Under the pieces are notes generated by a model, which did not search any database, was not told where the DNA came from, and worked only from the letters and a program-made list of their open reading frames with translations. A DNA stretch of 64,000 nucleotides from Algibacter pacificus (lineage in GTDB: Bacteria > Bacteroidota > Bacteroidia > Flavobacteriales > Flavobacteriaceae): NCBI RefSeq assembly GCF_008033385.1, contig NZ_VOGY01000004.1:310001-374000 (forward strand), written 5' to 3'. Shown here in pieces: positions 546 to 40,976 of this stretch; the first letter of the stretch is position 1; the number at the start of each line of letters is the position of its first letter. A program made the translations under genes and the position numbers.

Positions 546-1826
546 TTAATAAAATAAATTAGACTCCATAGTTCGCTGGTTAATAGAACTAGTAAACACC
601 TGCAGCATGCGTTTTGCTATACCTGTCCAACCAAAATTACGTCGTGCAAAACGAGCACCTTCTACAGATAGTTCATTACGCATTTTAGGATACAATAAAG
701 GCATAGCCATCATAGCACCAAATTCAACAGGTCTATGCGGATCGGCAAACAAAGCCTGATTTCCAAAATCTATTAAATCGTACAATCCGCCATGCACAGT
801 AACAACACTTGGCGTACCACAGGCCATAGCTTCAATAGCTACCATACCAAAAGGTTCGTAACGCGATGGCATAACAAAAATATTAGCCGCACGGTATACA
901 TTGGCTAAATCTTCATCTGCTATATAATTTTTCCAGGTTATTTTATCTAAAACACCTAATTCTTTGGCTAGCTTTTTTAGACCAGCAACCCCTTTATCAT
1001 CTTGCTCAGACTGATCGCCACCAATGGCAGCCACTAATCGCGCTTCTGGACAAAGTTCAAAAACTGTTGGTAGCGCTCTAATAAGTAAATCGTACCCCTT
1101 ATTATGTGCCATTCTTCCTAAGGCTAAAATATCGGTAGGTTGTATATCATATTTAGCTCGAATTTTATCATTCTCTTTTGTTGGAACAGGGTAAAATCTG
1201 TTTTCATCAATTCCGGGAGGAATCATGGTGCAATTTCTAGAAAGCACATCATATTGCTGGGTTAATAAATCAACTTGCGGCAAAGTTGTTGCTACAATAT
1301 GATTACACATTTGATAAACAAAATATTCCTTTCTAATACGTTCTTTAAACCTATAGGTCTTTTCCATTTCCTTTTCATCCATATCGCTTCCCATACTGTG
1401 TTGTTTCCACCACCCTAAAGAATGCGGTGTATGTACGTGAGACACCCCTAGTTCTTCGGCTATTTTTTGTCCAGCCCAACCAGCATCCCAGTAATGAGAA
1501 TAAACAACATCATATTTTTTGTTATTCTTTTTTATTGCCGCCAAAGTATTGGTTACAAAAGCTTTAAGATGATCGTGCATATCCTCTTTTCTAATAAACT
1601 TTTTTCCTCCAAAAGGAATACGCCATACACTATAATTTTCGTGTACATGATCATATTCAGGTTGATTTTCAAACTGTCGTGTTACTAAATCGACACGTTT
1701 ACCTAATCTACTAAAACGTTCTGCTAACTCTAGAACATAAACGACTTGGCCGCCCGTATCTGGTTTACCTAATTCCGGATTGGCTGCTACATATCCATGT
1801 AAAGAGATCATTAAAATTGACTTCAT
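546..1826 (-). CDS. GT4 glycosyltransferase, sucrose-/mannosylfructose-phosphate synthase-like
   Basis: A GT-B fold retaining glycosyltransferase of 426 residues. The N-terminus (ISLHGYVAA, then PDTGGQVVYVLELA at residues 22-35) is the donor/acceptor loop typical of the sucrose-phosphate synthase and mannosylfructose-phosphate synthase (MfpsA) group, and the C-terminal domain has the E-x7-E motif EPFGMVAIE of GT4 enzymes. The family transfers glucose or mannose from a nucleotide sugar to fructose-6-phosphate. It lies 21 bp downstream of a HAD phosphatase of the matching type on the same strand, so the pair could make and dephosphorylate a sucrose-like disaccharide, probably a compatible solute. 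Whether the donor is UDP-glucose or GDP-mannose cannot be read from the sequence. Confidence 0.85.
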   Translation of the reverse strand: MKSILMISLHGYVAANPELGKPDTGGQVVYVLELAERFSRLGKRVDLVTRQFENQPEYDHVHENYSVWRIPFGGKKFIRKEDMHDHLKAFVTNTLAAIKKNNKKYDVVYSHYWDAGWAGQKIAEELGVSHVHTPHSLGWWKQHSMGSDMDEKEMEKTYRFKERIRKEYFVYQMCNHIVATTLPQVDLLTQQYDVLSRNCTMIPPGIDENRFYPVPTKENDKIRAKYDIQPTDILALGRMAHNKGYDLLIRALPTVFELCPEARLVAAIGGDQSEQDDKGVAGLKKLAKELGVLDKITWKNYIADEDLANVYRAANIFVMPSRYEPFGMVAIEAMACGTPSVVTVHGGLYDLIDFGNQALFADPHRPVEFGAMMAMPLLYPKMRNELSVEGARFARRNFGWTGIAKRMLQVFTSSINQRTMESNLFY

Positions 1827-1847
1827 AATTTTATCGTTTTTAGTTTA

Positions 1848-3935
1848 TTATTTCTTAATTATTTTTAAATCGTGACAAGCAGAAATGTATTGCGCTGCAG
1901 ACCATGCTTGATAGGCTTTTCCCATAGCTTTTCCCGATATACCATGTGCCCATTCATTAAACTCCCATTCTTCATTTAAACCTTCCTTATTAATTAATGC
2001 CAATTTATGCAACTCGGAAATGGCCATGTCTCTAAAACCAAGTTTCCCTATAAATTTAACCCAAAAACCACCTACAAAAGGCCAAATTCCGCCGTTATGA
2101 TAATGGTTTGGTAAATTCAATAAATTAACTGTGTAGTACGATTTCCAGTCGGGATCTCCGGGTGTTACCACAGGGTATACATTAGATACTGGAAAAGGGT
2201 CGTTAACCCCAACGCCCAACATAAATTTAAATGTTTGATGCGCCTTTTCCGAGTCTACAGTGCCAAATAAAAAAGCTAAAACGTTACCAAAAACATCACA
2301 ACGCCAACTAAAATCGAATGGTGTAGTTTGCTGAATTAAATAAGGCGTATCACCCAATGTAAACTGACGTTCGGCAAATGAAACCGATTGAAATAATTTT
2401 TGTTGTGTAGAAGGCCAAAAATTTTGCAATATTTCTTTCTTAATCACTTGAGACCAACGAATATATTCTCCTGCTTCATCATAATCACCAAGCATTTCAA
2501 GCATTCTACCAAAACACACATTAGAGCGGTACCAGAGAATTTCATCATACAAAATATTGTAACTTCCGCCAAATAAATCGGTCCAATCTCCTGCTTCGGG
2601 TATTTCTAATAAAGCATCATTATTACTATCATGAGCGCCAAGCCAACGCATGGTTTCTTTGATATCGGAAATGTATTTACGTAAAAACTTGATATCTTTA
2701 GTTACATTTACATATTCGTAAAAAGCAATAACTACCCAAATACCACTATCTATGGAGCAAATTCCCCCTACTCCCGAGTAATCGGGTTGTTTATCTTTTA
2801 AACGAACATTGGAAGGTATTTGTCCGTTTCTGGAACTATTCTCGATTAAGGTGACTAAAGTTTGCCTTTGACATTGATGAATTTCTTCATCATCCACTAA
2901 TGCTAAAGAGCCAATAACCGTAATAGCACCATCTCTTGCCCAAACGCTGTGATAATTTTCATCGGTTCCGTTAGTCACATTATCTTTAATAGAACAAGCC
3001 GAAAAACCAAGTGGTGTAATATTCTTTTTTAAAGCAATGATGGCTTTCTCATAACCTTCAAGTATGATATCTAATTTTTCTTTATCATCCTCAGATGCTA
3101 TACTAATTAATTCTTGCTGAATAATATAATCGTCTGTATGGTCTGTATTACTTTCAACTATGGCTTCTTCAGGTAACACCCCATAATATACTAAGCCTTC
3201 AATTACGCCATCACCATAATCCTTTTCGGCATGATAAATTTGTCTATATTTAGTATATTTATAAAGTTCTTCATGGGCATTAGCAACCACTATACCTTTG
3301 ATGTCCTCCATATCGAACATCGCAGAATCATTACCACTATCCCCTGCTACTAAGGCTTGCGAAGCGCTTAAATTGAGTTTTTTTAGTAGCCACTGTAAGG
3401 CATTACCCTTATTGGCCCATTTAGGAAGAATATCTAAATATTGTTCTTGCGAATACACTACATTAATATCCATATTGGCTTTAACAAAAATATTTTCAAT
3501 TTCTGAAATAACGGCATCGGAAGCATTGTGAAAATAATAACTGCGCTTATAGTCGTGTTGATATTTACTAGGTTGTTCGTTAATAGGTCCGTCAATATTT
3601 TGGATAATTTCTTCTACCAGTTCTAAATTCCAACCATCGTCTAAAACATCATTAAATTCTTTAACTACGCATTTTTTGTTATAGTCGTAAATATGAGTTC
3701 CTACGCCAGAAATAATATAATCGGGTTTTGGTAATGTTCCTTTTTGAATTAAGTTTATAACATCATCAACTAAACGTCCTGTATTATAAGCAAGAAGTGC
3801 TTTTTGTCCCGATTTATAAGTTTGCCATATTTTACGAAAGTTACTTTTATGTGTATTGAACTCTATAAGTGTGTTATCTATATCAAAAGACAGTAGCCTA
3901 ATATCATGCTGAATTTTATCTGTAGTACCTCCCAT
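1848..3935 (-). CDS. HAD-IIB sugar-phosphate phosphatase fused to a glycosidase-like (alpha/alpha)6 domain
   Basis: A 695-residue two-domain protein. Residues about 12-255 form a HAD-IIB phosphatase of the sucrose/mannosylfructose-phosphate phosphatase type: nucleophile motif FDIDNTL (Asp18, Asp20) and metal motif GDSGNDSAMF near residue 200. Residues about 275-690 look like an (alpha/alpha)6-barrel glycosidase (amylo-alpha-1,6-glucosidase or GH100-like), with VWARDGAI, PEAGDWTDLFGG and NHYHNGGIWPFVGGFW segments. The usual stand-alone phosphatase is about 250 residues, so this is a true fusion. It precedes the synthase-like glycosyltransferase in one transcription unit. Phosphatase assignment is solid; the barrel's substrate is unknown, and it may hydrolyse the product of the pathway or modify it. 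Confidence 0.82.
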   Translation of the reverse strand: MGGTTDKIQHDIRLLSFDIDNTLIEFNTHKSNFRKIWQTYKSGQKALLAYNTGRLVDDVINLIQKGTLPKPDYIISGVGTHIYDYNKKCVVKEFNDVLDDGWNLELVEEIIQNIDGPINEQPSKYQHDYKRSYYFHNASDAVISEIENIFVKANMDINVVYSQEQYLDILPKWANKGNALQWLLKKLNLSASQALVAGDSGNDSAMFDMEDIKGIVVANAHEELYKYTKYRQIYHAEKDYGDGVIEGLVYYGVLPEEAIVESNTDHTDDYIIQQELISIASEDDKEKLDIILEGYEKAIIALKKNITPLGFSACSIKDNVTNGTDENYHSVWARDGAITVIGSLALVDDEEIHQCQRQTLVTLIENSSRNGQIPSNVRLKDKQPDYSGVGGICSIDSGIWVVIAFYEYVNVTKDIKFLRKYISDIKETMRWLGAHDSNNDALLEIPEAGDWTDLFGGSYNILYDEILWYRSNVCFGRMLEMLGDYDEAGEYIRWSQVIKKEILQNFWPSTQQKLFQSVSFAERQFTLGDTPYLIQQTTPFDFSWRCDVFGNVLAFLFGTVDSEKAHQTFKFMLGVGVNDPFPVSNVYPVVTPGDPDWKSYYTVNLLNLPNHYHNGGIWPFVGGFWVKFIGKLGFRDMAISELHKLALINKEGLNEEWEFNEWAHGISGKAMGKAYQAWSAAQYISACHDLKIIKK

Positions 3936-4298: not shown

Positions 4299-4976
4299 CT
4301 ATTCAACCCTTTTTAATCCTGCCAAATCTTCAATTTTAATATACTTTCCTTTTGTAGAAATTAGATTTTCCTTTTTAAACTGAGAAATAATACGAATGGC
4401 AGACTCTGTTGCGGTACCCACAATATTAGCATAATCTTCGCGTGATAATAAAACGCTAAGGGTACCATCGGCATTAACGCCAAAACTATTTTGAAGATAA
4501 ATTAAAACATCGGCAAGCCTTTTTCTTACGGTTTTTTGAGCCATATTTACAATAATATTATCCGATTCTCTTAAATCTCTTGCCATCACTTTTAGCACAT
4601 CTAAAGAAAACTTAAGGTTATTTTCAAGATCTGCCATAATTTCATTTTTTGGAATAAAGCATACTTCCATATCACATAAGGCCACGGCCTGTAAATTGGA
4701 GCACTCGTCTGTTATTAGCGAACGTTGGCCTAGCAACTGGCCTTTTACAACCATTTTTACAATTTGATCTTTTCCGTTTTCACTGAGTTTGGATAATTTA
4801 CATATACCATTTTTAATGCAATATACCCCATTAATAACTTCACCTTCTTCAAAAATAACTTCGCCTTTTTTTATTTTTCTAGAGGTTTTACATTCCGAAA
4901 TACGCATTAACTCATCTTTAGATAAAGTCTTCATTGAATTAAATTGTTTAATTATACATTGTTCACATTTTCCCAT
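4299..4976 (-). CDS. Crp/Fnr-family transcription regulator, FNR-like
   Basis: A 225-residue cNMP-binding-fold regulator with a C-terminal HTH_Crp. Cysteines C4 and C7 (CEQC) align with FNR C20/C23, and C106 in MEVCFIP aligns with FNR C122. The position of FNR C29 is Asn13, so a canonical [4Fe-4S] ligand set is incomplete; C29 or C53/C59 might replace it. The recognition helix ATESAIR has Glu191 and Arg195, the pair that reads TGA in CRP/FNR, but lacks the FNR serine. It is 36 bp downstream of a universal stress protein gene and very likely cotranscribed from the ATGAY-N4-RTCAT promoter, so it is probably autoregulated. An oxygen or redox sensing role is inferred from cysteines and context. 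Confidence 0.88.
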   Translation of the reverse strand: MGKCEQCIIKQFNSMKTLSKDELMRISECKTSRKIKKGEVIFEEGEVINGVYCIKNGICKLSKLSENGKDQIVKMVVKGQLLGQRSLITDECSNLQAVALCDMEVCFIPKNEIMADLENNLKFSLDVLKVMARDLRESDNIIVNMAQKTVRKRLADVLIYLQNSFGVNADGTLSVLLSREDYANIVGTATESAIRIISQFKKENLISTKGKYIKIEDLAGLKRVE

Positions 4977-5012
4977 ACCGATTTGAGGTTTAATTCTATT
5001 TAAAATATCCTT

Positions 5013-5852
5013 TTAATGTAAAACTAGAAAAGGAACATCTGTATAATAACTTACTTTTGGAGTTGTAGGGTGAAATAAAATTTTCTGAAAATAGTTTAAA
5101 TTTTTTGCCAACATCGCAATTAAATTAATTTTATTTTTTTCAACAAAATCCTGCATGGCAATTTCAATATGATTATTAGTTAAGAAATGAAAACTATGCT
5201 CTTGGTTATTAAAATAATCATCTAGAAATTCTTTGTTCTTTTTTTGATCTTCATTTAAATCTGCCTTACTATTATTAATATGGAGTGCTCTTACTGCGGC
5301 GTGATTTTCTTCCACAATATCTGCCATGGGCTGCAAGGTTTCAGAATGATAAAAAAAAGAAAAATCTGTTGGAAAGGCTATTTCTTTTAGGTTTATATAT
5401 TTGGCATTTTCTGGAATAACTAAGGTGTTACATTTTACTTTTGTAATAACATTTCCTGTATTACTGCCAACAGCCAAATTATGGATATTAGACGCCCCTC
5501 TAGTCCCCATAACAATAAAATCTATTTTTTTTTGTTCCACATGTTTTCTAATAGAATTTATTAAAAAATTTTCATCTATAACAGGATAAAATTTATGGTT
5601 TTCATTAAAACAAGAACTCTTAATAATTCGTTCTATGGTGTCGTGTAATCTTTTTTTTGAAGTATTGCCTAAAACATTAGAAACTTCGGTTTCTCCTATA
5701 TTGGCCATTACTTCTGTATATTTTGGACTTACAGAAGTATCTATGTGCAGTATGTAAAAATTACAAGACGACTTACCGAAAAACTGGAGCGCATACTCTA
5801 TGGCATTCCATGCATTTTCAGAAAAATCGGTAGGTATTAAAATATTTTTCAT
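5013..5852 (-). CDS. Universal stress protein, tandem UspA domains
   Basis: A 279-residue protein starting MKNILIPTDFSENAWNAIEYAL, a standard UspA beginning. The first domain ends in the ATP-binding-type signature GTRGASNIHNLAVGSNTGNVI (about residues 117-137). The second domain (about 150-279) has the fold pattern but no intact G-x2-G-x9-G-(S/T) loop, so it is probably degenerate. It is the first gene of a unit with the FNR-like regulator and has an FNR-type site at its promoter. This matches the known linkage of Usp proteins with low-oxygen regulons, but no biochemical role is shown. Confidence 0.88.
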   Translation of the reverse strand: MKNILIPTDFSENAWNAIEYALQFFGKSSCNFYILHIDTSVSPKYTEVMANIGETEVSNVLGNTSKKRLHDTIERIIKSSCFNENHKFYPVIDENFLINSIRKHVEQKKIDFIVMGTRGASNIHNLAVGSNTGNVITKVKCNTLVIPENAKYINLKEIAFPTDFSFFYHSETLQPMADIVEENHAAVRALHINNSKADLNEDQKKNKEFLDDYFNNQEHSFHFLTNNHIEIAMQDFVEKNKINLIAMLAKNLNYFQKILFHPTTPKVSYYTDVPFLVLH

Positions 5853-5871
5853 GTTTGTTTACTTCTGAATA

Positions 5872-5915
5872 CAAAAGTAAACGCATGATATTTAAAGAAA
5901 TATGACCAAAATCAT
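5872..5915 (-). promoter_or_regulatory. FNR-type site plus -7 element of the usp-fnr unit
   Basis: Read on the minus strand: the palindrome ATGATTTTGGTCAT (5915-5902), then exactly 22 nt, then TACTTTTG (5879-5872), a perfect TAnnTTTG -7 element. Start codon follows 19 nt after the box. The palindrome centre falls near -41.5. The unit includes the FNR-like regulator gene, which suggests autoregulation. Confidence 0.8.
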
Positions 5916-5937
5916 AAATCTTCATTATCGCTATATT

Positions 5938-6987
5938 TTAATGCATATCCTGGAGTTTATTAAGGTCTAAAATTTTAATATTCCGACCTTCAATTTCAAT
6001 AAGTCCACTGTCTTTAAAACTGGATAAGGTTCTAATTAAGCTTTCGGTTGCTATTCCAGCAACACTAGCCAAATCGTTACGTGAAATTTTAATATTATCT
6101 TCTGGATTTCTATTGAGCTTTTCTGCAAATTTTAAGATGGTATTTGCTGTTCTTTTTTTAACCGAGCTATAGGCCATTTGCAATAAATGCTCTTTAACAT
6201 CGGTGAGGTTTTCTGTTAACAGCTGAATAAGCTCTAGAGTAACTTGATGATTGTTATTAAGCACTTCTTTAAGCGCACTTTTAGTTACTCCTATTAGAAC
6301 CGTTTCTTTTATAGCGGTTGTAGATTCTTGATATGCTGTATTTTGAAGAAATGATGTGTACCCAAATAAGTCGTCTTCTTTATATAATGCTGTTGTTAAA
6401 TCTTTTCCTTTTTCGTCAAATTTATGCGATTTTACTAAGCCTTTGGAAATTAAGTAAACATAATTAGAATTTTGTCCTTCTTCATAAATGGTTTCACCCT
6501 TACCGTATTTAGTAACTTCTCCATTATCATCAAAAAAATTTTTTAAATCGTTAAGTGTTCTAATTTCAGGTTCATTGGTACCACCTTTAGTTTTTTCTTC
6601 GTGCAAATCTTTTAAAATAGAAGCTTTTGCCAGCCTACTTTCTATAGCACTAATGAGTTCTCCTTCATCAAAAGGTTTTGTAATATAATCATCGGCTCCT
6701 AAATCCATGCCTTTTCTTACATCTTTACGCTCTGTTTTTGCCGATAAAAATATAAATGGAATATGTTTTGTAATTTCATTTTTAGATAAAGCTTCTAAAA
6801 CACCGTAACCATCAAGCTCAGGCATCATAATATCGCAAACAATAATGTTAGGTAAATACTTAATTGCCATTTGAACGCCAACCTCTCCGTTTGGAGCTGT
6901 TATCATATCATAATCAGACAATTCAAGTAATTCCGCTGTGTTTTCTCTTAAAACAACATCATCTTCTATCAATAATACTTTATTCAT
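5938..6987 (-). CDS. Response regulator: REC domain fused to a CRP-type sensor and HTH
   Basis: 349 residues in three parts. Residues 1-120 form a receiver with phospho-acceptor Asp52 in IIVCDIMMPELDG, acidic pair Glu8/Asp9/Asp10 and the KPF lysine. Residues about 145-260 form a cNMP-binding fold, and the C-terminus is an HTH_Crp. The recognition helix IATESLIR (Glu315, Arg319) nearly matches that of the neighbouring FNR-like protein. In effect it merges the roles of FixJ (receiver) and FixK (CRP-type activator). Its start overlaps the kinase stop by one base (TAATG), so the two are translationally coupled. It lacks the N-terminal Cys cluster of the FNR-like protein, so its signal is presumably phosphorylation. 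Confidence 0.9.
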   Translation of the reverse strand: MNKVLLIEDDVVLRENTAELLELSDYDMITAPNGEVGVQMAIKYLPNIIVCDIMMPELDGYGVLEALSKNEITKHIPFIFLSAKTERKDVRKGMDLGADDYITKPFDEGELISAIESRLAKASILKDLHEEKTKGGTNEPEIRTLNDLKNFFDDNGEVTKYGKGETIYEEGQNSNYVYLISKGLVKSHKFDEKGKDLTTALYKEDDLFGYTSFLQNTAYQESTTAIKETVLIGVTKSALKEVLNNNHQVTLELIQLLTENLTDVKEHLLQMAYSSVKKRTANTILKFAEKLNRNPEDNIKISRNDLASVAGIATESLIRTLSSFKDSGLIEIEGRNIKILDLNKLQDMH

Positions 6988-8228
6988 TATTCTACTTTAT
7001 TTTGCATTTTTATGGTAAATATACTTCCTTTATTTTCTTCACTTACAAAACTTATAGTTCCTCCTAAGTTTTCTAAATGGCTTTTAACAATATTTAATCC
7101 AATACCTGTTCCTTGCACTAATAGAGCATTCTCTGCCCTAAAATAACGGTTAAATATACTTTTTTGATCTTTAACAGGAATACCCATACCGTTATCTTTT
7201 ATACGAAAATAGGTATGCGTATTATCTTGTTTTACATGAATATCTACAATGGTGTTTTCAGAGGAATATTTTATAGCATTATTAACCAAATTCGATAAGG
7301 CTAATTCTAAAATTTTCTCATCTTGATATAATGAATAATCATCGATGTTTTCTGGATAATTAATTTTTTGCCCGTCTTTTAAAAGCATATTAGCATTGTA
7401 AACCACTTCATTAACTACTTTACTAACCTTAAAGGTAGTAAGTTTATAATTCATTTTTCCGGTTTCCAATTTTTCAATCGATAGAAAATCGTTTAAAATG
7501 TTATTTAAGTAATGTACTTTATCCGAAATAGTTCTTATATGCTTATCTCGCCGTTCCTGCTGTTCGGTTAATTTATATTTACTTAATAGCATAGATGATG
7601 TTAAAATACCACTTAACGGGGTTTTAAACTCATGCGAAACTAAAGACAAAAACTTCGTTTTCAATTCGTTAAGTTCTTTTTCTTTTTTAAGCGCATTACT
7701 AATTCTATTTTGTGCTTCAATACGTTTCTTTATTTCTTGGTCGCGTTGAAGATTTACTATTTTTAACTCTTCAACCATATTACTTAACTCGTTTGTTCGC
7801 TCCTTAACTTTTTGTTCTAACTCGGTATTTAATTCTAACAATTCCAGTTCTTGCCGTTTTCTTATTGTAATATCGATAACGAGCGTCATTATAAAACTTT
7901 CACCATTAATTTCTAAGGGGTTTAATCCAGCCTCTAAAGGAAATATGGTTCCGTCTTGACGTCTTCCGTACAAATCTCTACCACGCCCCATTTTTCGGCT
8001 TTCTTTATTTTTCATAAAACCATCAAAATGACTACCGTGATTTGCATGATAACTTTTTGGTATTAAAATATTGAGGTGCTGATTTAATAAACCTTCCTTA
8101 GTGTACCCAAACATACTTTCGGATGATTTATTTGTTGCCACAATTTTTTGATTCTTGTCTACAACAATAACACCTTCTGAAACAGCTTCAAAAAGTACGT
8201 TAAATACACGATCATTATTTTGGAACAT
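6987..8228 (-). CDS. FixL-like PAS sensor histidine kinase
   Basis: 413 residues: one PAS domain (about 10-130), a coiled coil, HisKA with H-box SLVSHEFKTPLSGIL, and HATPase with N-box NLVNNAIKYS and G-box GTGIGLNIVK. No membrane segment is visible, so it should be cytosolic. In the PAS domain PKSYHANHGSHFDGF aligns without gaps with the haem-binding helix of rhizobial FixL: His64 falls on the proximal haem His200 and Arg84 on the oxygen-responsive Arg220 of Bradyrhizobium FixL. This His is also common in PAS domains that do not bind haem, so oxygen sensing is plausible but unproven. It forms an operon with the REC-CRP regulator and is divergent from ccoI. Confidence 0.88.
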   Translation of the reverse strand: MFQNNDRVFNVLFEAVSEGVIVVDKNQKIVATNKSSESMFGYTKEGLLNQHLNILIPKSYHANHGSHFDGFMKNKESRKMGRGRDLYGRRQDGTIFPLEAGLNPLEINGESFIMTLVIDITIRKRQELELLELNTELEQKVKERTNELSNMVEELKIVNLQRDQEIKKRIEAQNRISNALKKEKELNELKTKFLSLVSHEFKTPLSGILTSSMLLSKYKLTEQQERRDKHIRTISDKVHYLNNILNDFLSIEKLETGKMNYKLTTFKVSKVVNEVVYNANMLLKDGQKINYPENIDDYSLYQDEKILELALSNLVNNAIKYSSENTIVDIHVKQDNTHTYFRIKDNGMGIPVKDQKSIFNRYFRAENALLVQGTGIGLNIVKSHLENLGGTISFVSEENKGSIFTIKMQNKVE

Positions 8229-8366: not shown

Positions 8367-8410
8367 ATGACAAATATCATATTTAAAAGACAGTTGATTT
8401 ATGATTTTTG
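8367..8410 (+). promoter_or_regulatory. FNR-type site plus -7 element of ccoI
   Basis: ATGACAAATATCAT (8367-8380), exactly 22 nt, then GATTTTTG (8403-8410), one mismatch from TAnnTTTG. The start codon of ccoI is 26 nt further on. There is no matching -7 element at the same distance on the other strand, so the site seems to serve ccoI only and not the divergent kinase gene. Confidence 0.75.
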
Positions 8411-8436: not shown

Positions 8437-10836
8437 ATGAGTAAAACCCCATGTTTTCACTGCGGTCTAGACGCATCTGAGGCTAATATTACGTATGATA
8501 ATAAATCGTTCTGCTGCAATGGTTGCAAAACTGTATACGAAATATTTTCTACAAACGATTTAACGTGTTACTACGATTTACAAGCCTCTGCCGGCGCTAA
8601 ACCTAGCGATATTGAAGGTAAATACAACTTTCTAGACAATCCTAAAATTGTTGAAAGCATCTTAGATTTTAATGATGAAAAAACGCAAATAGCAACCTTA
8701 TTTATTCCGCATATTCACTGTAGTTCTTGTATTTGGATTCTTGAAAATTTAAATAAATTAAATCCATCTATAAGTTCTTCTATTGTAAACTTCGGAAAAA
8801 AAACCGTACGAGTTACCTACAATAGCGAAACTATTTCTTTAAAACAATTAGTTAAACTTTTAAGCAGTATTGGATACGAACCATTTATAAGTTTAGACGA
8901 TTATAGTGTTGGGAAAAAGAATGTAGATCGCTCTCTAATTTACAAATTAGGCGTTGCTGGTTTTGCCTTTGGAAATGTGATGTTTTTATCCTTTCCGGAG
9001 TATTTCCAAGTTACCGGCTTTTGGATTGAAACCTACGCTCCACTTTTCAGATGGCTTATGTTTAGCTTTTCTCTTCCTGTTGTTTTTTACTCGGGACAAG
9101 ATTATTTAATATCCGCCTATAAAGGTTTACGCTCTAAAATTTTAAATATCGATGTTCCAATATCTTTAGGTATACTTGTTTTATTTGTAAGAAGTACTGC
9201 GGAAATTATCCTAAATCTTGGCACTGGTTTTTTCGATAGCTTAACGGGTCTAATCTTTTTTCTTTTACTTGGGAAATTTTTTCAGCAAAAAACATACAAT
9301 TACTTATCTTTTGAACGTGATTACAAATCGTATTTCCCTATAGGAATAACCAAATTACACCCCGATGGAACGGAAGAATCTGTTCAAATTTACGATATTG
9401 AAAAAGGCGATCGATTATTAATAAGAAATGAAGAATTAATACCTGTGGACTCTATTCTAATAAAAGGAAAAGCAAGAATAGACTACAGCTTTGTAACTGG
9501 TGAAGCCGAAGCTGTTTACAAACAATCTGGCGATAAGCTATTTGCCGGAGGAAAACAGTTAAAAGGAAGTATTGAAGTCGATGTTTTAAAAACTGTAGAA
9601 CAAAGTTATTTAACCCAGCTATGGAGCAACGATGTGTTTAATAAAAACAAAGAAGATCGTTTTACAACGCTTACCAATGCCATAAGTAAAAAATTTACCA
9701 TTGCGGTTTTAAGCATTGCTTTTCTAGCAACAGCGTATTGGCTATTTGTCGATTCATCAAAAGCATTAAATGTTTTTACAGCCGTTTTGATTATAGCTTG
9801 CCCTTGCGCCATTGCTCTGGCTGCGCCTTTTACTTTCGGTAATCTACTACGTATTTTTGGTAAATTAAAATTCTACGCAAAAAACGCATCAGTTATCGAG
9901 CAGCTAGCAGCTATTAACACCATTATTTTCGATAAAACAGGAACCATTACAGCCAATAAAGAAACCGCTATTACCTATGAAGGTTCTAACCTTTCCTCCG
10001 ATCAAGAGATTCTACTTAAAAGCACCTTACGAAATTCAAATCATCCTTTAAGTAGATCTTTATACAACCTTTTAAATAAACATGATATTGCCACTTTAGA
10101 TAACTACGAAGAACATACAGGTAAAGGAATTGAAGCCAAACGTAACCAAAATACCATAAAAATTGGCTCTGCTCCTTTTGTTGGCTACACCGCCGAAACG
10201 TCCACTTTAAACACCGCCGTTTACGTAAGCACCAATAGTGAATATAAAGGGCGATTTACTTTTTCTAATAAATACAGAAAAGGCTTGTCTAAACTATTTA
10301 ATAAATTAAAAAAACATTTTGATTTAGTTATTCTTTCTGGGGATAACGCTGGAGAAACAGAAAACTTAACCAAGTTATTGCCAGCAAAAACAAAGCTACT
10401 ATTTAACCAGAAACCAGAAGATAAACTAGAATATATAAAACACCACCAACAATCGGGAGCCAAAGTACTAATGATTGGTGATGGGCTTAATGATGCTGGC
10501 GCTTTAGCACAAAGTGATGTTGGTATTGCTATTTCCGAAAACGTCAACATATTTTCTCCAGCATGCGATGCTATTCTCGATGCGTCAAAATTCAATCATT
10601 TATACGATTTTATTAAAGCTTCAAAATCAGCCATAAAAATTATTAGATATAGTTTTTTATTATCCTTAATATATAACAGCATAGGATTATATTTTGCTGT
10701 TACAGGACAACTAGCCCCCGTAATAGCCGCTATATTAATGCCTTTAAGTTCTATTAGTATCGTACTATTTACTACGGTTAGCACTAATTTTGTAGGTAGA
10801 AAATTAAAAAAACAAAAAAAGTATTCATTGCAATAA
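8437..10836 (+). CDS. ccoI: P1B-type copper-transporting ATPase for cbb3 oxidase assembly
   Basis: 799 residues. The N-terminus carries a Cys-rich metal-binding segment (CFHCG then CCNGC, residues 6-30), followed by an HMA-like domain with HCSSC near residue 93, membrane helices, the ion-channel motif CPCAIA, the phosphorylation motif DKTGTIT and the hinge GDGLNDAGAL. The Cys-rich N-terminal extension is typical of the CcoI/FixI/CtpA group, which exports copper for insertion into cytochrome cbb3. It stands directly upstream of ccoS-ccoNO with its own FNR-type promoter. The copper assignment rests on CPC and the operon context. Confidence 0.93.
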   Translation: MSKTPCFHCGLDASEANITYDNKSFCCNGCKTVYEIFSTNDLTCYYDLQASAGAKPSDIEGKYNFLDNPKIVESILDFNDEKTQIATLFIPHIHCSSCIWILENLNKLNPSISSSIVNFGKKTVRVTYNSETISLKQLVKLLSSIGYEPFISLDDYSVGKKNVDRSLIYKLGVAGFAFGNVMFLSFPEYFQVTGFWIETYAPLFRWLMFSFSLPVVFYSGQDYLISAYKGLRSKILNIDVPISLGILVLFVRSTAEIILNLGTGFFDSLTGLIFFLLLGKFFQQKTYNYLSFERDYKSYFPIGITKLHPDGTEESVQIYDIEKGDRLLIRNEELIPVDSILIKGKARIDYSFVTGEAEAVYKQSGDKLFAGGKQLKGSIEVDVLKTVEQSYLTQLWSNDVFNKNKEDRFTTLTNAISKKFTIAVLSIAFLATAYWLFVDSSKALNVFTAVLIIACPCAIALAAPFTFGNLLRIFGKLKFYAKNASVIEQLAAINTIIFDKTGTITANKETAITYEGSNLSSDQEILLKSTLRNSNHPLSRSLYNLLNKHDIATLDNYEEHTGKGIEAKRNQNTIKIGSAPFVGYTAETSTLNTAVYVSTNSEYKGRFTFSNKYRKGLSKLFNKLKKHFDLVILSGDNAGETENLTKLLPAKTKLLFNQKPEDKLEYIKHHQQSGAKVLMIGDGLNDAGALAQSDVGIAISENVNIFSPACDAILDASKFNHLYDFIKASKSAIKIIRYSFLLSLIYNSIGLYFAVTGQLAPVIAAILMPLSSISIVLFTTVSTNFVGRKLKKQKKYSLQ

Positions 10837-10893: not shown

Positions 10894-10937
10894 ATGACGT
10901 TTGTCATGTTTTAGCCAAAAGCTTAAAAGTATTTTTG
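10894..10937 (+). promoter_or_regulatory. FNR-type site plus -7 element of ccoS-ccoNOQP
   Basis: ATGACGTTTGTCAT (10894-10907) sits inside a longer palindrome ACATGACGTTTGTCATGT. After exactly 22 nt comes TATTTTTG (10930-10937), a perfect TAnnTTTG. The ccoS start is 21 nt after the box. This is the strongest-looking of the five sites. Confidence 0.85.
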
Positions 10938-11154: not shown

Positions 11155-13347
11155 ATGGAAATGCAACAATTTAAGTACGATAATAAAATCGTAACAAAAT
11201 TTATTTACGCCACTATTGTTTTTGGGGTTGTAGGTATGTCTGTAGGGTTACTACTTGCTTTTATGTTTTTATTCCCCAATTTAACCGATGGTATTCCTTG
11301 GTTAAGTTTTGGTCGTTTAAGACCATTACACACCAATGCTGTTATCTTTGCTTTTGTTGGTAACGCCATGTTTGCTGGTATTTATTACTCGCTACAACGG
11401 TTATTAAAAGCTAGAATGGCGAGCGACCTTTTAAGTAATATTAACTTTTGGGGTTGGCAGCTTATTATTGTTGCGGCTGCTATTACATTACCTTTAGGTT
11501 ATACTTCTACTAAAGAATATGCTGAACTAGAATGGCCAATAGATATTGCTATTACTATTGTTTGGGTTGTTTTTGGTATTAACATGATTTGGACGATATT
11601 AAAACGTAGACAACGTCATTTATATGTTGCTATCTGGTTTTACTTAGCCACATTTGTTACTGTTGCAGTTCTCCATATATTTAACAATTTAGAATTACCT
11701 GTAAGTGCTTTTAAAAGTTACTCTGTTTACGCTGGTGTTCAAGATGCACTTGTACAATGGTGGTATGGGCATAATGCTGTAGCCTTCTTTTTAACTACGC
11801 CCTACTTAGGACTTATGTATTACTTTGTTCCTAAAGCTGCAAACCGACCTGTATATTCTTACAGATTATCTATTGTACACTTTTGGTCTCTTATATTTAT
11901 TTATATCTGGGCAGGACCTCACCACTTGCTATATACCGCTTTACCAGAATGGGCACAAGCTTTAGGTACCACATTCTCAATCATGTTATTAATGCCATCT
12001 TGGGGAGGTATGATTAATGGTTTACTAACCCTTCGTGGTGCTTGGGATAAAGTTCGTATCGATCCTGTTTTAAAATTCATGGTTGTTGCTATTACAGGTT
12101 ATGGTATGGCAACCTTTGAAGGTCCAATGCTTTCTCTAAAAAGTGTAAACGCCGTAGCGCATTTTACCGATTGGATTATTGCACACGTACACGTTGGTGC
12201 TCTAGCTTGGAATGGATTCTTAGCTTTCGGTATGATTTACTATTTAGTGCCTCGTTTATTTAAAACAAAAATGTTCTCTTTAGGCTTAATGAACGCACAC
12301 TTCTGGATAGGAACTTTAGGCATCATTATGTATGCATTACCTTTATATGTTGCCGGATTTACACAATATTCTATGTGGCAACAATTTAACCCAGACGGCA
12401 CCTTAGTTTATGGAAATTTCTTAGAAACAGTTACAGAAATTATGCCTATGTACACAATGCGCGCAATTGGTGGTAGTTTATATATATCTGGTTTATTTAT
12501 CCTTGTTTACAATGTTATCATGACTATAAAACAAGGTAGTAAAGTAGAGGACGAATTAGCCGAAGCACCTGCACTTGAACGCGTTTCTAAAAGACGTACA
12601 GCAAACGAAGGGTGGCACACTTGGTTAGAGCGTAAACCTATTCAATTAACTATTTTAGCCACTATTGCTATTTTAATAGGAGGCATTGTTCAAATAGTTC
12701 CAACTATCATGGTAAAATCTAATATACCAACAATATCAAGTGTAAAACCCTATACACCATTAGAATTAGAAGGTCGAGATATTTACATCCGTGAAGGCTG
12801 TGTAAGTTGTCACACACAAATGGTTCGTCCATTTAGACATGAAGTTGAACGTTATGGCGAATACTCGAAAGCTGGAGAATTTGTTTACGACCATCCATTC
12901 CTTTGGGGTTCTAAACGTACAGGACCAGATTTACATAGAGTTGGTGCAAAATACTCCGACAACTGGCACTTTAACCATATGTATGATCCGCAAAGTACCT
13001 CATCGGGTTCAATTATGCCAAGATACCCATGGTTAATAACAGGTAAAAGTAGTGAGCTAGACAAATCTTTAACCGAAACAAAAATGGAAGCTATGGTTAC
13101 TTTAGGCGTTCCATATACGGAAGAAGATATTGCAAAAGCGCAAGAAAACATGCTAAAACAAGGTACCCAAATAGAAGAAAATTTACACCAAGATCCCGAT
13201 TTTGCAAAAACCTATGAAGCTGATAAAAAATATGCAGCTGAAAACGGTTTACCTTTTATAGAAATGAAAAACAGAGAGATTGTTGCCCTTATTGCATATT
13301 TACAGCGTTTAGGAACCGATATCCATGTTAAACCAGAACAAAAATAA
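11155..13347 (+). CDS. ccoNO: Cytochrome cbb3 oxidase subunits I and II fused (CcoN-CcoO)
   Basis: 730 residues. The first about 490 are CcoN: twelve predicted helices with haem/copper ligands in RPLHTNAV, WWYGHNAVAFF, GPHHLLYTALPEW and AHVHVGALAWNG. After a linker and one further helix follows CcoO with a single haem-c motif GCVSCHTQMVRPF and a likely Met ligand in GSIMPRYPW. In proteobacteria CcoN and CcoO are separate proteins; the fusion is the usual arrangement in Bacteroidota. This is the catalytic core of a high-affinity terminal oxidase of the inner membrane. It is cotranscribed with ccoS, ccoQ and ccoP. Confidence 0.97.
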   Translation: MEMQQFKYDNKIVTKFIYATIVFGVVGMSVGLLLAFMFLFPNLTDGIPWLSFGRLRPLHTNAVIFAFVGNAMFAGIYYSLQRLLKARMASDLLSNINFWGWQLIIVAAAITLPLGYTSTKEYAELEWPIDIAITIVWVVFGINMIWTILKRRQRHLYVAIWFYLATFVTVAVLHIFNNLELPVSAFKSYSVYAGVQDALVQWWYGHNAVAFFLTTPYLGLMYYFVPKAANRPVYSYRLSIVHFWSLIFIYIWAGPHHLLYTALPEWAQALGTTFSIMLLMPSWGGMINGLLTLRGAWDKVRIDPVLKFMVVAITGYGMATFEGPMLSLKSVNAVAHFTDWIIAHVHVGALAWNGFLAFGMIYYLVPRLFKTKMFSLGLMNAHFWIGTLGIIMYALPLYVAGFTQYSMWQQFNPDGTLVYGNFLETVTEIMPMYTMRAIGGSLYISGLFILVYNVIMTIKQGSKVEDELAEAPALERVSKRRTANEGWHTWLERKPIQLTILATIAILIGGIVQIVPTIMVKSNIPTISSVKPYTPLELEGRDIYIREGCVSCHTQMVRPFRHEVERYGEYSKAGEFVYDHPFLWGSKRTGPDLHRVGAKYSDNWHFNHMYDPQSTSSGSIMPRYPWLITGKSSELDKSLTETKMEAMVTLGVPYTEEDIAKAQENMLKQGTQIEENLHQDPDFAKTYEADKKYAAENGLPFIEMKNREIVALIAYLQRLGTDIHVKPEQK

Positions 13348-18381: not shown

Positions 18382-19755
18382 TTAAACCGTCATGGAGAAC
18401 AGTTGTGCACCGGGTTGTTTACGTTGTAATAAAACATCGAAAGCCATACATATATTTCGAACAAAGGGTTGTCCTTTTTCGGTAACTTCAATACTATTCT
18501 GTTTTATTTTAACCAAACCGTCTTGCTTCATTTCCTTTAATTGTGCTAAAGCCGCTGGCAACTCAGGAAAGTAAAGTTGCTCACTAGACCAACTGGTTTT
18601 AAAACGACACATTAAATTTAGAATATGTTTTCTAATTATCAAATCTTCCTCGTTTAAAATATGCCCTCTATAAACAGGTATAATATGATCGTTTAATAAA
18701 TTATAATAACTCTCTAAACCTTTTACGTTTTGCGCAAACCCATACCAGCTATCACTTATTGACGACACGCCTAAACCAATCATAGCTTGCGTTTTAGAAG
18801 CCGTATACCCCATAAAATTACGGTGTAAGTTTCCATTTTCCATAGATTGAAATAAACTATCGGTTTTTAAGGCGAAGTGATCCATTCCTATTTCATGATA
18901 GCCTACTTCGGCTAATATTTTTTTACCTAATTCATACTGCTTTCTTTTTAATTTTGGAGTTGGTAAATCTTCATCATTAAAACCACGTTGCCCATTTCCT
19001 TTTATCCACGGCACATGCGCGTAACTGTAAAAAGCCAATCGATCTGGTAAAAGTGCTTTTGTTTTTAAAATAGTAGATTCTACATGTTCTATAGTTTGAA
19101 ATGGTAAACCGAAAATAATATCGTGACCTACGGATGTATACCCTATTTCCCTAGCCATTTCGGTCGCTCGTTTTACGTTTTCGAAGGGTTGAATTCGGTG
19201 AATGGCTTTTTGAACCGTTTCATTATAATCTTGCACACCGTAACTTACCCGTCTAAAACCAACATCAAAAAGCGCTTGCAAATGTTCACGCGTGGTATTA
19301 TTAGGGTGTCCCTCGAAACTAAACTCGTAATTATTGGCTAAAACCGATTGGTTTAAAATACCATTAATTAATAGTTTTAAATGCTCTGGACTAAAAAAGG
19401 TTGGCGTACCACCTCCAAGATGTAATTCTTTAATAATTGGCTTTTCATCCAATAATTCTAAATATAAATCCCACTCTTTTAAAACAGCATTTATATATGG
19501 AGATTCCACGCTGTGTTGCTTAGTAATGCGTTTGTTACAACCGCAAAAAGTGCATAAACTTTCGCAAAAAGGAAGGTGAATATAAAGACTAATCCCTTCT
19601 TTGGAATTACTTTCTTTAAACGATTTTACTAATGTTTGCTTCCATTTATGCAATGAAAACGTCTCATTATTCCAATACGGAACCGTAGGATAACTCGTGT
19701 ATCGAGGTCCGGAAACATTATATTTATCGACTAATGAATTGTGCATATCTAACAT
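18382..19755 (-). CDS. hemN: Oxygen-independent coproporphyrinogen III oxidase
   Basis: 457-residue radical SAM enzyme with the cluster motif HLPFCESLCTFCGCNK (the CxxxCxxC plus the extra Cys of HemN), the GGGTPTFFSPEHL loop and a C-terminal HemN domain. It converts coproporphyrinogen III to protoporphyrinogen IX without oxygen, using SAM, in the cytosol. The first ATG lies only 8 nt after the end of the -7 box, so the transcript would be almost leaderless; an in-frame ATG three codons later (MHNSL) is an alternative start with a leader of about 10-13 nt. An FNR-type site upstream fits induction at low oxygen, when the cbb3 oxidase also needs haem. Confidence 0.95.
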   Translation of the reverse strand: MLDMHNSLVDKYNVSGPRYTSYPTVPYWNNETFSLHKWKQTLVKSFKESNSKEGISLYIHLPFCESLCTFCGCNKRITKQHSVESPYINAVLKEWDLYLELLDEKPIIKELHLGGGTPTFFSPEHLKLLINGILNQSVLANNYEFSFEGHPNNTTREHLQALFDVGFRRVSYGVQDYNETVQKAIHRIQPFENVKRATEMAREIGYTSVGHDIIFGLPFQTIEHVESTILKTKALLPDRLAFYSYAHVPWIKGNGQRGFNDEDLPTPKLKRKQYELGKKILAEVGYHEIGMDHFALKTDSLFQSMENGNLHRNFMGYTASKTQAMIGLGVSSISDSWYGFAQNVKGLESYYNLLNDHIIPVYRGHILNEEDLIIRKHILNLMCRFKTSWSSEQLYFPELPAALAQLKEMKQDGLVKIKQNSIEVTEKGQPFVRNICMAFDVLLQRKQPGAQLFSMTV

Positions 19756-19763
19756 TTAATATT

Positions 19764-19807
19764 CAAAACTATAGGAATCCAATCGTTAAATATATGATAT
19801 ATATCAT
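19764..19807 (-). promoter_or_regulatory. FNR-type site plus -7 element of hemN
   Basis: On the minus strand: ATGATATATATCAT (19807-19794), exactly 22 nt, then TAGTTTTG (19771-19764), a perfect TAnnTTTG. The same palindrome sits about 9 bp upstream of the -33 element of the divergent YceI gene but at a distance that does not fit class II activation there. Confidence 0.8.
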
Positions 19808-40363: not shown

Positions 40364-40976
40364 GTTTTCTAATTAATGATAATGTTCACTACAGTCTCTA
40401 AATTTGATATTACTTTCAAAAAAAAAGTTATATTAAACATTTATTTTAATTTGCTTTCCATAGTAAAAAAAGGCACCTAGTAAAAAAACTTACTCCTAAA
40501 CACTAGGTTAAAACTAAGGTATTTTACCTTCTTCTTTTGATGAATTCTGCTTAATTTTCAATTAAAAATTGAGGTCATACTTTTCTTCTTAACACCACAT
40601 TAAATTGAAAAATATAGCAAGTATACTATATAGAGTAAAGAATAAGCAAATACCCCTAATAAAATTATGTTAAAACTTTATATTGAAGATATAGCTATAG
40701 TATTACAATTTTATTTCAACCTGAAATTTACAATATTTTAAAAGAAAAACAACAGCCTCCAACAATGAACATTTTTAATTTATAAAAGACTAAACCTTAA
40801 GACACCATAGGTGTTCTTGTTTAGTTAACAAACGAAACATGCACCAGATGAAATTGAAAAAAATGATGGATGTCAATAAATCATATCAATTATTTTATTG
40901 AAATGATTAAAGTCATATAAATTTAGCCTAAAGAATGCCAACTTTGCATTATCAATCAGACGAAAATTTTATAAAA
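40364..40976. other. 613-bp divergent intergenic region
   Basis: Separates dsbD from the efflux operon. Apart from the FNR-type promoter at its right end it shows only AT-rich sequence and a weak hairpin, ACCTAGT (40475-40481) with ACTAGGT (40502-40508). I see no supported small gene. Confidence 0.5.
40903..40946 (+). promoter_or_regulatory. FNR-type site plus -7 element of the TolC efflux operon
   Basis: ATGATTAAAGTCAT (40903-40916), exactly 22 nt, then CAACTTTG (40939-40946), one mismatch from TAnnTTTG. Because the -7 box overlaps an ATG at 40935, translation must start downstream; the ATG at 40977 gives a leader of about 25 nt. Confidence 0.7.

Follow-up and report, generated by a model that had tools for sequence, protein, structure and literature searches.

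The window analysed here, a stretch of 64,000 nucleotides from Algibacter pacificus, encodes two CRP/FNR-type regulators close to each other: Fnr, and a fusion of a receiver domain to a CRP-type protein (REC-CRP). The recognition helices that an earlier note on this DNA had read from the sequence, ATESAIR in Fnr (E191, I194, R195) and ATESLIR in REC-CRP (E315, I318, R319), were confirmed at their positions (Table 1). This raises the question whether two regulators share one operator, and which signal each of them would bring to it. With a probability of about two in three, the locus is a Flavobacteriaceae oxygen-control module in which Fnr and REC-CRP, the latter driven by a haem kinase, share the operator [A/C]TGAY-N4-RTCAT and activate the same low-oxygen genes; binding, cofactors, phosphotransfer, direction and thresholds are the predicted elements of this reading, and the order of the genes, the sites with their conservation and the exchange of the regulators among genomes are the observed ones.

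Operators in the window and the genome

The window contains five matches to ATGAYNNNNRTCAT, where 0.15 would be expected, and five were reached in none of 100 shuffles. The five ATGAY-N4-RTCAT sites that had been proposed are real, and all of them are intergenic according to the open reading frame (ORF) calls. They do not correspond to the FNR box TTGAT-N4-ATCAA: no match to TTGAYNNNNRTCAA was found in the window, where TTGAYN4RTCAA is absent, and the outer bases of the sites upstream of ccoN (see below) are mostly A or C.

Genome-wide (4.17 Mb), 33 sites were counted against 26 with a reversed control pattern, so that the bare count was set aside as weak proof of a regulon when taken alone. 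Rough ORF calls place 16 of the 33 between genes (the five in the window and 11 of the other 28); from the 10.5% intergenic fraction of the window, about 3.5 would be expected (p 4e-8). When three marginal sites (L050, L051, L054) are left out, 13 of 33 are intergenic (p 1.4e-5, or 6e-4 for a genome that is 15% intergenic). The genes beside the genome sites that fit low oxygen, as judged by eye from the translations, include usp, pta, an Fe-type alcohol dehydrogenase gene, mdh, pckA, hpf and hemN. Other neighbours have no obvious low-oxygen fit (a TonB-like protein, an ArsR-type regulator and a porin-like protein).

Exchange of the regulators across the family

The occurrence of the two regulators was followed in an even draw of 249 Flavobacteriaceae genomes. 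REC-CRP was assigned at an E-value of at most 1e-90 and Fnr at one of at most 1e-40, which are thresholds and not proofs of absence. REC-CRP was found in 106 genomes and Fnr in 157; both occur in 61, Fnr only in 96, REC-CRP only in 45 and neither in 47. The search for ccoNO covered 40 of the 96 Fnr-only genomes, 40 of the 61 with both, all 45 with REC-CRP only and 35 of the 47 with neither, and ccoN was present in 38, 40, 41 and 1 of these, respectively.

Upstream of ccoN, sites were sought in the band from -380 to -200 in loci with enough sequence; one genome (G072) was added from an order-wide draw, and ten loci from other families (L119-L128) were kept out of the count. The core TGAY-N4-RTCA was found in 43 of 45 Fnr-only loci, 37 of 41 with both and 40 of 42 with REC-CRP only, as well as in all three loci with Fnr and a divergent REC-CRP. 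Outside this band, it occurs once in 22.7 kb of REC-CRP-only upstream regions. The full ATGAY-N4-RTCAT is present at ccoN in 8/8 Fnr-only genomes without any REC-CRP at E 1e-40. The same holds for the core at a second target. In REC-CRP-only genomes, hemN was found in 23 of the 30 searched, and in 20 of these 23 the core lies no more than 300 bp upstream; its position is -54 to -77 in 19 cases (background: 6 in 28.8 kb).

In a FastTree phylogeny of 131 CcoN proteins, the presence of Fnr switches 19 times or more, and at least 12 changes of the REC-CRP-only label are required by supported branches; on this gene tree, gain and loss look alike. Because the sites are conserved across the classes and the labels change on the CcoN tree, the sites seem to have outlived many replacements. 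For low-oxygen respiration, Fnr and REC-CRP appear to recognise a common set of sites and to substitute for one another over evolutionary time. The convergence on the same promoters that the earlier note had proposed is well supported by the common ccoN core in genomes with one regulator and by the hemN core in those with REC-CRP only. The opposition of a redox input to a phosphorylation input, which was part of the same proposal, calls for correction, since the FixL-type PAS domain of the kinase beside REC-CRP (see below) makes oxygen the probable input of both.

Several results weigh against this view of exchange over conserved sites. At least two Fnr-only genomes (G087 and G133) also encode a more divergent REC-CRP. 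Many of the 35 searched genomes (of 47) with neither regulator are small or drafty, yet ccoN is present in none of the ten of at least 3.0 Mb. One REC-CRP-only locus (G340) probably lies on a foreign contig (64% GC upstream, oxidase 51% identical), and without it the core is found in 39 of 41. Among the other families, the exact core at ccoN is present in 3/5 loci of f2 and f7 and in 1/5 of f5, so that four of the five ccoN loci of this last, related family are without a site. Finally, the full symmetric ATGAY-N4-RTCAT is present at ccoN in 31/45 Fnr-only loci, 26/41 with both and 10/42 with REC-CRP only. As this form is commoner with Fnr than without it, the sequence preferences of the two proteins may differ slightly.

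It is improbable, on the whole, that only one of the proteins binds in any one cell, with sites that overlap by descent and with targets split by spacer or outer base where both are encoded. Such a split would fit the plain counts. The ccoN spacer contains G or C in 0/46 Fnr-only loci (including the three divergent ones), 3/37 with both and 14/40 with REC-CRP only (including the doubtful G340; Fisher 7.6e-6), and the difference persists after allowing for local GC (p 5e-5); a left outer C is likewise commoner without Fnr (26/40 vs 20/83). On the tree, neither mark of the REC-CRP-only class is significant: independent pairs of CcoN proteins give 2.0 vs 0.2 for the spacer (median p 0.5) and 1.5 vs 1.4 for the outer C (median p 1), in a test of little power. 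The spacer counts are a hint that Fnr needs A/T at these positions.

It is still less probable that the real reader of the sites is another CRP/FNR-type protein. HTH_Crp_2 is matched eight times in this genome, twice with a score below the family cut-off, and the helix pattern E-x-x-I-R is not unique to the pair: it occurs in Fnr, in REC-CRP and in a third protein (L092, helix TTEEQVIR). More distant CRP-type proteins with an RVETVIR helix, also candidate readers and as such a further point against the pair, are encoded in the REC-CRP-only genomes G039 (L133) and G072 (L134). A close relative of L092 (E below 1e-80) is, however, rare, with 5/45 REC-CRP-only genomes and 2/35 genomes with neither regulator, and the third protein is not supported as the reader. 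Without such a relative, G039 keeps a perfect ccoN site and a near-consensus hemN site, and the site that precedes the kinase operon of G102 is perfect; the two genomes that have a relative of L092 and neither regulator have no ccoN. L092 itself (G000:C2:334945-335157) carries CxxC-x4-C near its start.

The preferred reading, in which Fnr and REC-CRP share the operators, extends to their own genes. Of the 61 Fnr loci, the best 30 comprise 22 with a perfect site (at -47 to -152; before usp in this genome), 6 with a site that has one mismatch and 2 with none near the gene. Of the 78 named kinase loci, 53 carry ATGAYN4RTCA[TG] ahead of the kinase gene. In the REC-CRP-only kinase loci, a site with at most one mismatch is present in 7/11 (G072, G102, G258, G381, G333, G187 and G336), and none was found within the short flank covered in the other four (G039, G268, G185 and G272). 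The promoters of the regulators themselves carry the site in most loci examined. In the window, where usp and fnr probably form one operon with usp first, the order of usp-fnr, kinase-recCRP and the ccoI-like gene (Table 1) places each regulator behind an operator that both may read.

Table 1. Features of the window (positions counted from its first nucleotide).
Feature	Position	Strand	Remarks
Fnr, CRP/FNR-type regulator	4299..4976	-	225 aa; Pfam cNMP_binding and HTH_Crp_2
ATESAIR, start of the Fnr recognition helix, residues 189-195	4392..4412	-	helix 190-202 in the AlphaFold model
Universal stress protein gene (usp)	5013..5852	-	Pfam Usp; ends 36 bp before fnr, same strand
Operator ATGACCAAAATCAT	5902..5915	.	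49 bp upstream of usp-fnr
REC-CRP response regulator	5938..6987	-	349 aa; Pfam domains
ATESLIR, recognition helix of REC-CRP, residues 313-319	6031..6051	-
Histidine kinase, PAS-HisKA-HATPase	6987..8228	-	Pfam; one-base overlap with REC-CRP
FixL-like PAS domain of the kinase	7854..8228	-	FixL chains top the sequence and fold lists
Operator ATGACAAATATCAT	8367..8380	.	between the divergent kinase-recCRP operon and ccoI-like gene; present in most relatives examined
Copper P-type ATPase gene, ccoI-like by eye	8437-10836	+	diverges from the kinase-recCRP operon
Operator ATGACGTTTGTCAT	10894..10907	.	upstream of a ccoS-like small ORF (by eye) and ccoNO; position conserved in relatives
ccoNO	11155-13347		behind the ccoS-like small ORF
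hemN	18382-19755	-
Operator ATGATATATATCAT	19794..19807	.	38 bp upstream of hemN; precedes a plus-strand gene as well
Operator ATGATTAAAGTCAT	40903..40916	.	18 bp upstream of an outer-membrane efflux-like gene (40935)

Two further observations concern the surroundings of these features. A second core, TGATGGATGTCA, lies at 40864, 40 bp before the core of the 40903 site and upstream of the efflux-like gene. At 546-3935, a glycosyltransferase gene adjoins a gene that, by eye, fuses a HAD-type phosphatase to a glycoside-hydrolase-like domain; the pair may belong to a sugar-osmolyte pathway.

Inputs of the two regulators

REC-CRP consists, according to Pfam, of a receiver (residues 4-116), a cNMP-type domain (160-246) and a Crp helix-turn-helix (HTH) domain (279-347). 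From the motif CDIMMP, Asp52 is the likely phospho-acceptor. The protein is neither a FixK nor a FixJ. FixK is a stand-alone CRP/FNR protein without a Cys cluster that is activated by FixJ, whereas REC-CRP is fused to a receiver domain, and its CRP part matches the NCBIfam FixK model below the cut-off (77.7 vs 300 bits). FixJ is a receiver with a LuxR-type HTH output; in REC-CRP the output is the cNMP-type domain with HTH_Crp_2.

The neighbouring kinase was followed in the best 80 named of the 558 REC-CRP relatives found (including Algibacter, Confluentibacter, Polaribacter, Kordia, Winogradskyella and Aquimarina). It adjoins REC-CRP in 78 of the 80, and the other two loci are cut by a contig end. 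The kinase is therefore the likely partner of REC-CRP, to which it would transfer its phosphate. In a sequence search with its PAS domain, the 13 best matches are without exception chains of haem PAS proteins (FixL at 1.4e-14 to 2.4e-13, DosP at 5e-10 to 2e-8), and the next match is a LOV domain at 6e-5. In the alignment, His64 of the kinase coincides with the haem His of FixL and is kept in 78/78 relatives. Arg84 coincides with the distal Arg of FixL (Arg220 in B. japonicum), and 71/78 relatives keep an Arg here. With the AlphaFold model (26 sequences, mean predicted local distance difference test (pLDDT) 83.6), Foldseek ranks 1 to 8 are FixL.

Three points count on the other side: LOV domains come shortly after FixL in the fold search, Arg206 of FixL is replaced by Gly, and Arg84 is lost in 7/78 relatives. 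For these reasons haem is considered likely but unproven, and oxygen is the probable input of the kinase. The alternative, that the PAS domain has no haem and senses another signal (redox potential, a flavin or a metabolite), would restore the two different inputs of the earlier note. The missing Arg206 would suit it, as would the LOV and orphan PAS structures that come close to this domain in fold score. It is unlikely all the same, given the 13 haem chains at the head of the sequence search, the conserved proximal His and mostly conserved distal Arg, and the position of the sites before cbb3 and hemN.

On the preferred reading, oxygen reaches the operators through Fnr as well. The CRP/FNR fold of this protein is evident from its sensor domain and Crp-type HTH (Pfam) and from the CRP/FNR-family chains at the top of the structural list. 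The best NCBIfam model is Fnr PRK11161, matched below its cut-off (95.8 vs 228 bits). By sequence, the first structural match is 2gau of P. gingivalis (2e-27), followed by FNR of A. fischeri (1.5e-23 to 1.3e-22). The AlphaFold model (mean pLDDT 87.7) also has 2gau as its best fold match (Z 27.1, root mean square deviation (rmsd) 1.6 over 214). In this comparison, less favourably for an FNR-like function, cAMP-binding CRPs (Z 24.0 to 26.1) outrank A. fischeri FNR (Z 22.2 to 23.9).

In the canonical FNR of E. coli, the cluster is held by cysteines 20, 23, 29 and 122. Exactly four cysteines are invariant in 30 aligned orthologues of Fnr from several families, namely Cys4, Cys7, Cys53 and Cys106. 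Cys4, Cys7 and Cys106 align with three of the canonical ligands, whereas the third N-terminal position is an Asn and the fourth invariant residue is Cys53. Compared with FNR of E. coli and A. fischeri, Fnr shares the fold (5e44: Z 23.4, rmsd 2.8 over 220 residues), the N-terminal CxxC, a Cys at the position of Cys122, and the Glu and Arg of the helix. It differs in having the invariant Cys53 instead of the third N-terminal ligand, Ile in place of Ser212, and an operator whose outer base is rarely T. Judging from these residues, Fnr may work like FNR, yet it is not a canonical FNR. It likely carries an oxygen-labile iron-sulfur (Fe-S) cluster, for which Cys53 is the predicted fourth ligand.

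The mechanism could then proceed as follows. Fnr and phosphorylated REC-CRP would both bind the dyad [A/C]TGAY-N4-RTCAT, with the cbb3 oxidase, the copper pump, hemN and their own operons as common targets. When oxygen falls, the haem kinase would lose its oxygen and phosphorylate REC-CRP, and the REC-CRP dimers on the operators would raise cbb3, hemN, the copper pump and their own operon. Nearer to anoxia, Fnr would keep its cluster, occupy the same operators and take over. A kinase that responds at mild oxygen limitation and an Fnr that responds near anoxia would be the most likely arrangement, with thresholds borrowed from what the accessible sections of PMC7888657 give for hFixL/FnrN of Rhizobium leguminosarum. 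The kinase/REC-CRP pair would fill the roles of FixL, FixJ and FixK with two proteins, FixJ and FixK being fused. A wider proposal is plausible, if tentative: two interchangeable oxygen sensors would act on one family-wide operator, each gained or lost many times with the sites staying. One would be a FixL-to-(FixJ+FixK) short circuit for mild limitation, and the other an Fnr with a new ligand set (Cys4, Cys7, Cys53 and Cys106) for near-anoxia.

Recognition helix, outer base and known systems

It had also been suggested that the Ile found where FNR has Ser212 explains the A found where the FNR box has an outer T. The premise that Glu209, Ser212 and Arg213 are the main contacts in E. coli FNR is borne out by the accessible text of PMC4505428. 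The code built on it was rejected, as natural variants rule against it. The third residue after the Glu is Ile in 80/80 named REC-CRP relatives (78 by pattern; L304 and L311 by eye), and with E-S/T-x-I-R near constant the left outer base at ccoN still varies: A 32, C 9 and G 2 in Fnr-only loci, A 26 and C 11 with both proteins, and C 26, A 10, T 3 and G 1 with REC-CRP only. The same Ile thus stands beside A, C or G. Five Fnr relatives of family f5 with the helix TATESAIR have G (3) or C (2) as the outer base. These relatives (L397-L401) start without CxxC, and their site starts 6 to 19 bp ahead of the first Met in the frame. The REC-CRP-only ccoN sites are, moreover, asymmetric: the gene-distal half-site has C in 26/40, and T (A on the other strand) follows the gene-proximal half-site in 38/40.

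The converse case is offered by five REC-CRPs with an E-T-V-S-R helix (L206-L210), next to which FixL-like kinases are encoded (by eye). Their loci are surrounded by Hsp20, universal stress and BON-domain genes (by eye), with a PEP-synthase-like gene in two, and contain 30 intergenic TGAY-N4-RTCA cores in 16.0 kb, against 8 in 83.5 kb of coding DNA; six pairs are 22 bp apart. The outer bases of the 30 cores are A 31, G 19, C 9 and T 1, so that the search for TTGAY sites near these Ser-type proteins found T at only 1/60 outer positions. Since the genomes also hold an Ile-type Fnr, the assignment of the sites to the Ser-type REC-CRP is inferred from their position. The loci look like a separate low-oxygen or dormancy regulon.

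Published work, as far as the available excerpts go, agrees that the Ser/Ile position of the helix is not decisive for operator choice (PMC4505428, PMC2610375). In preliminary shift assays, PP_3287 of Pseudomonas putida, which has Cys in place of Ser, was still able to bind TTGATCTAGATCAA (PMC4505428), and the outer pairs of the CprK site are conserved mainly through indirect readout (PMC2610375). The natural variants described here are counter-examples to a simple one-residue rule for operator choice in CRP/FNR proteins.

The nearest precedent for the exchange is the alphaproteobacterial FnrN/FixK pair with its single motif and taxon-specific replacement, as outlined in the accessible part of PMC4999443. 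There, a haem PAS kinase (through FixLJ-FixK) and an Fe-S CRP/FNR protein (FnrN) feed one dyad, TTGAT-N4-ATCAA, which lies before cbb3, other respiratory genes and their own genes; one or both are kept per lineage, and in Caulobacterales FnrN has been replaced by FixLJ-FixK (excerpts of PMC4999443 and PMC7888657). The present system differs in that receiver and CRP/FNR output form one polypeptide, in the operator [A/C]TGAY-N4-RTCAT, in the cysteine set of Fnr and in the flavobacterial host. The hFixL-FxkR-FixKf system of Rhizobium is similar in that a FixL-type kinase uses a response regulator other than FixJ, and it works beside FnrN at a higher oxygen threshold (same excerpts). FxkR, as far as described there, turns on a separate fixK via a K-box, whereas in the present system the respiratory operator seems to be bound directly by the response regulator. 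In Pseudomonas putida, several CRP/FNR proteins of differing oxygen sensitivity (ANR, PP_3233 and PP_3287) act on one operator; according to the available text of PMC4505428, all are Fe-S FNR proteins and no response regulator is involved.

Oxygen control in Bacteroidota is hardly described among the matches listed in the open-access literature, and a REC-CRP fusion paired with a FixL-type kinase is reported for the phylum in none of these matches, nor is this operator. A study of wastewater metagenome-assembled genomes linked Flavobacteriales CRP/FNR homologues to carbon sensing, and its accessible part does not describe the REC-CRP/kinase/Fnr system (PMC8510549). The locus offers a candidate operator, two regulators, a candidate oxygen sensor and, in a family that is mostly marine, a natural swap experiment. 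Because of this swap experiment, it can be asked directly how a regulon survives the replacement of its regulator.

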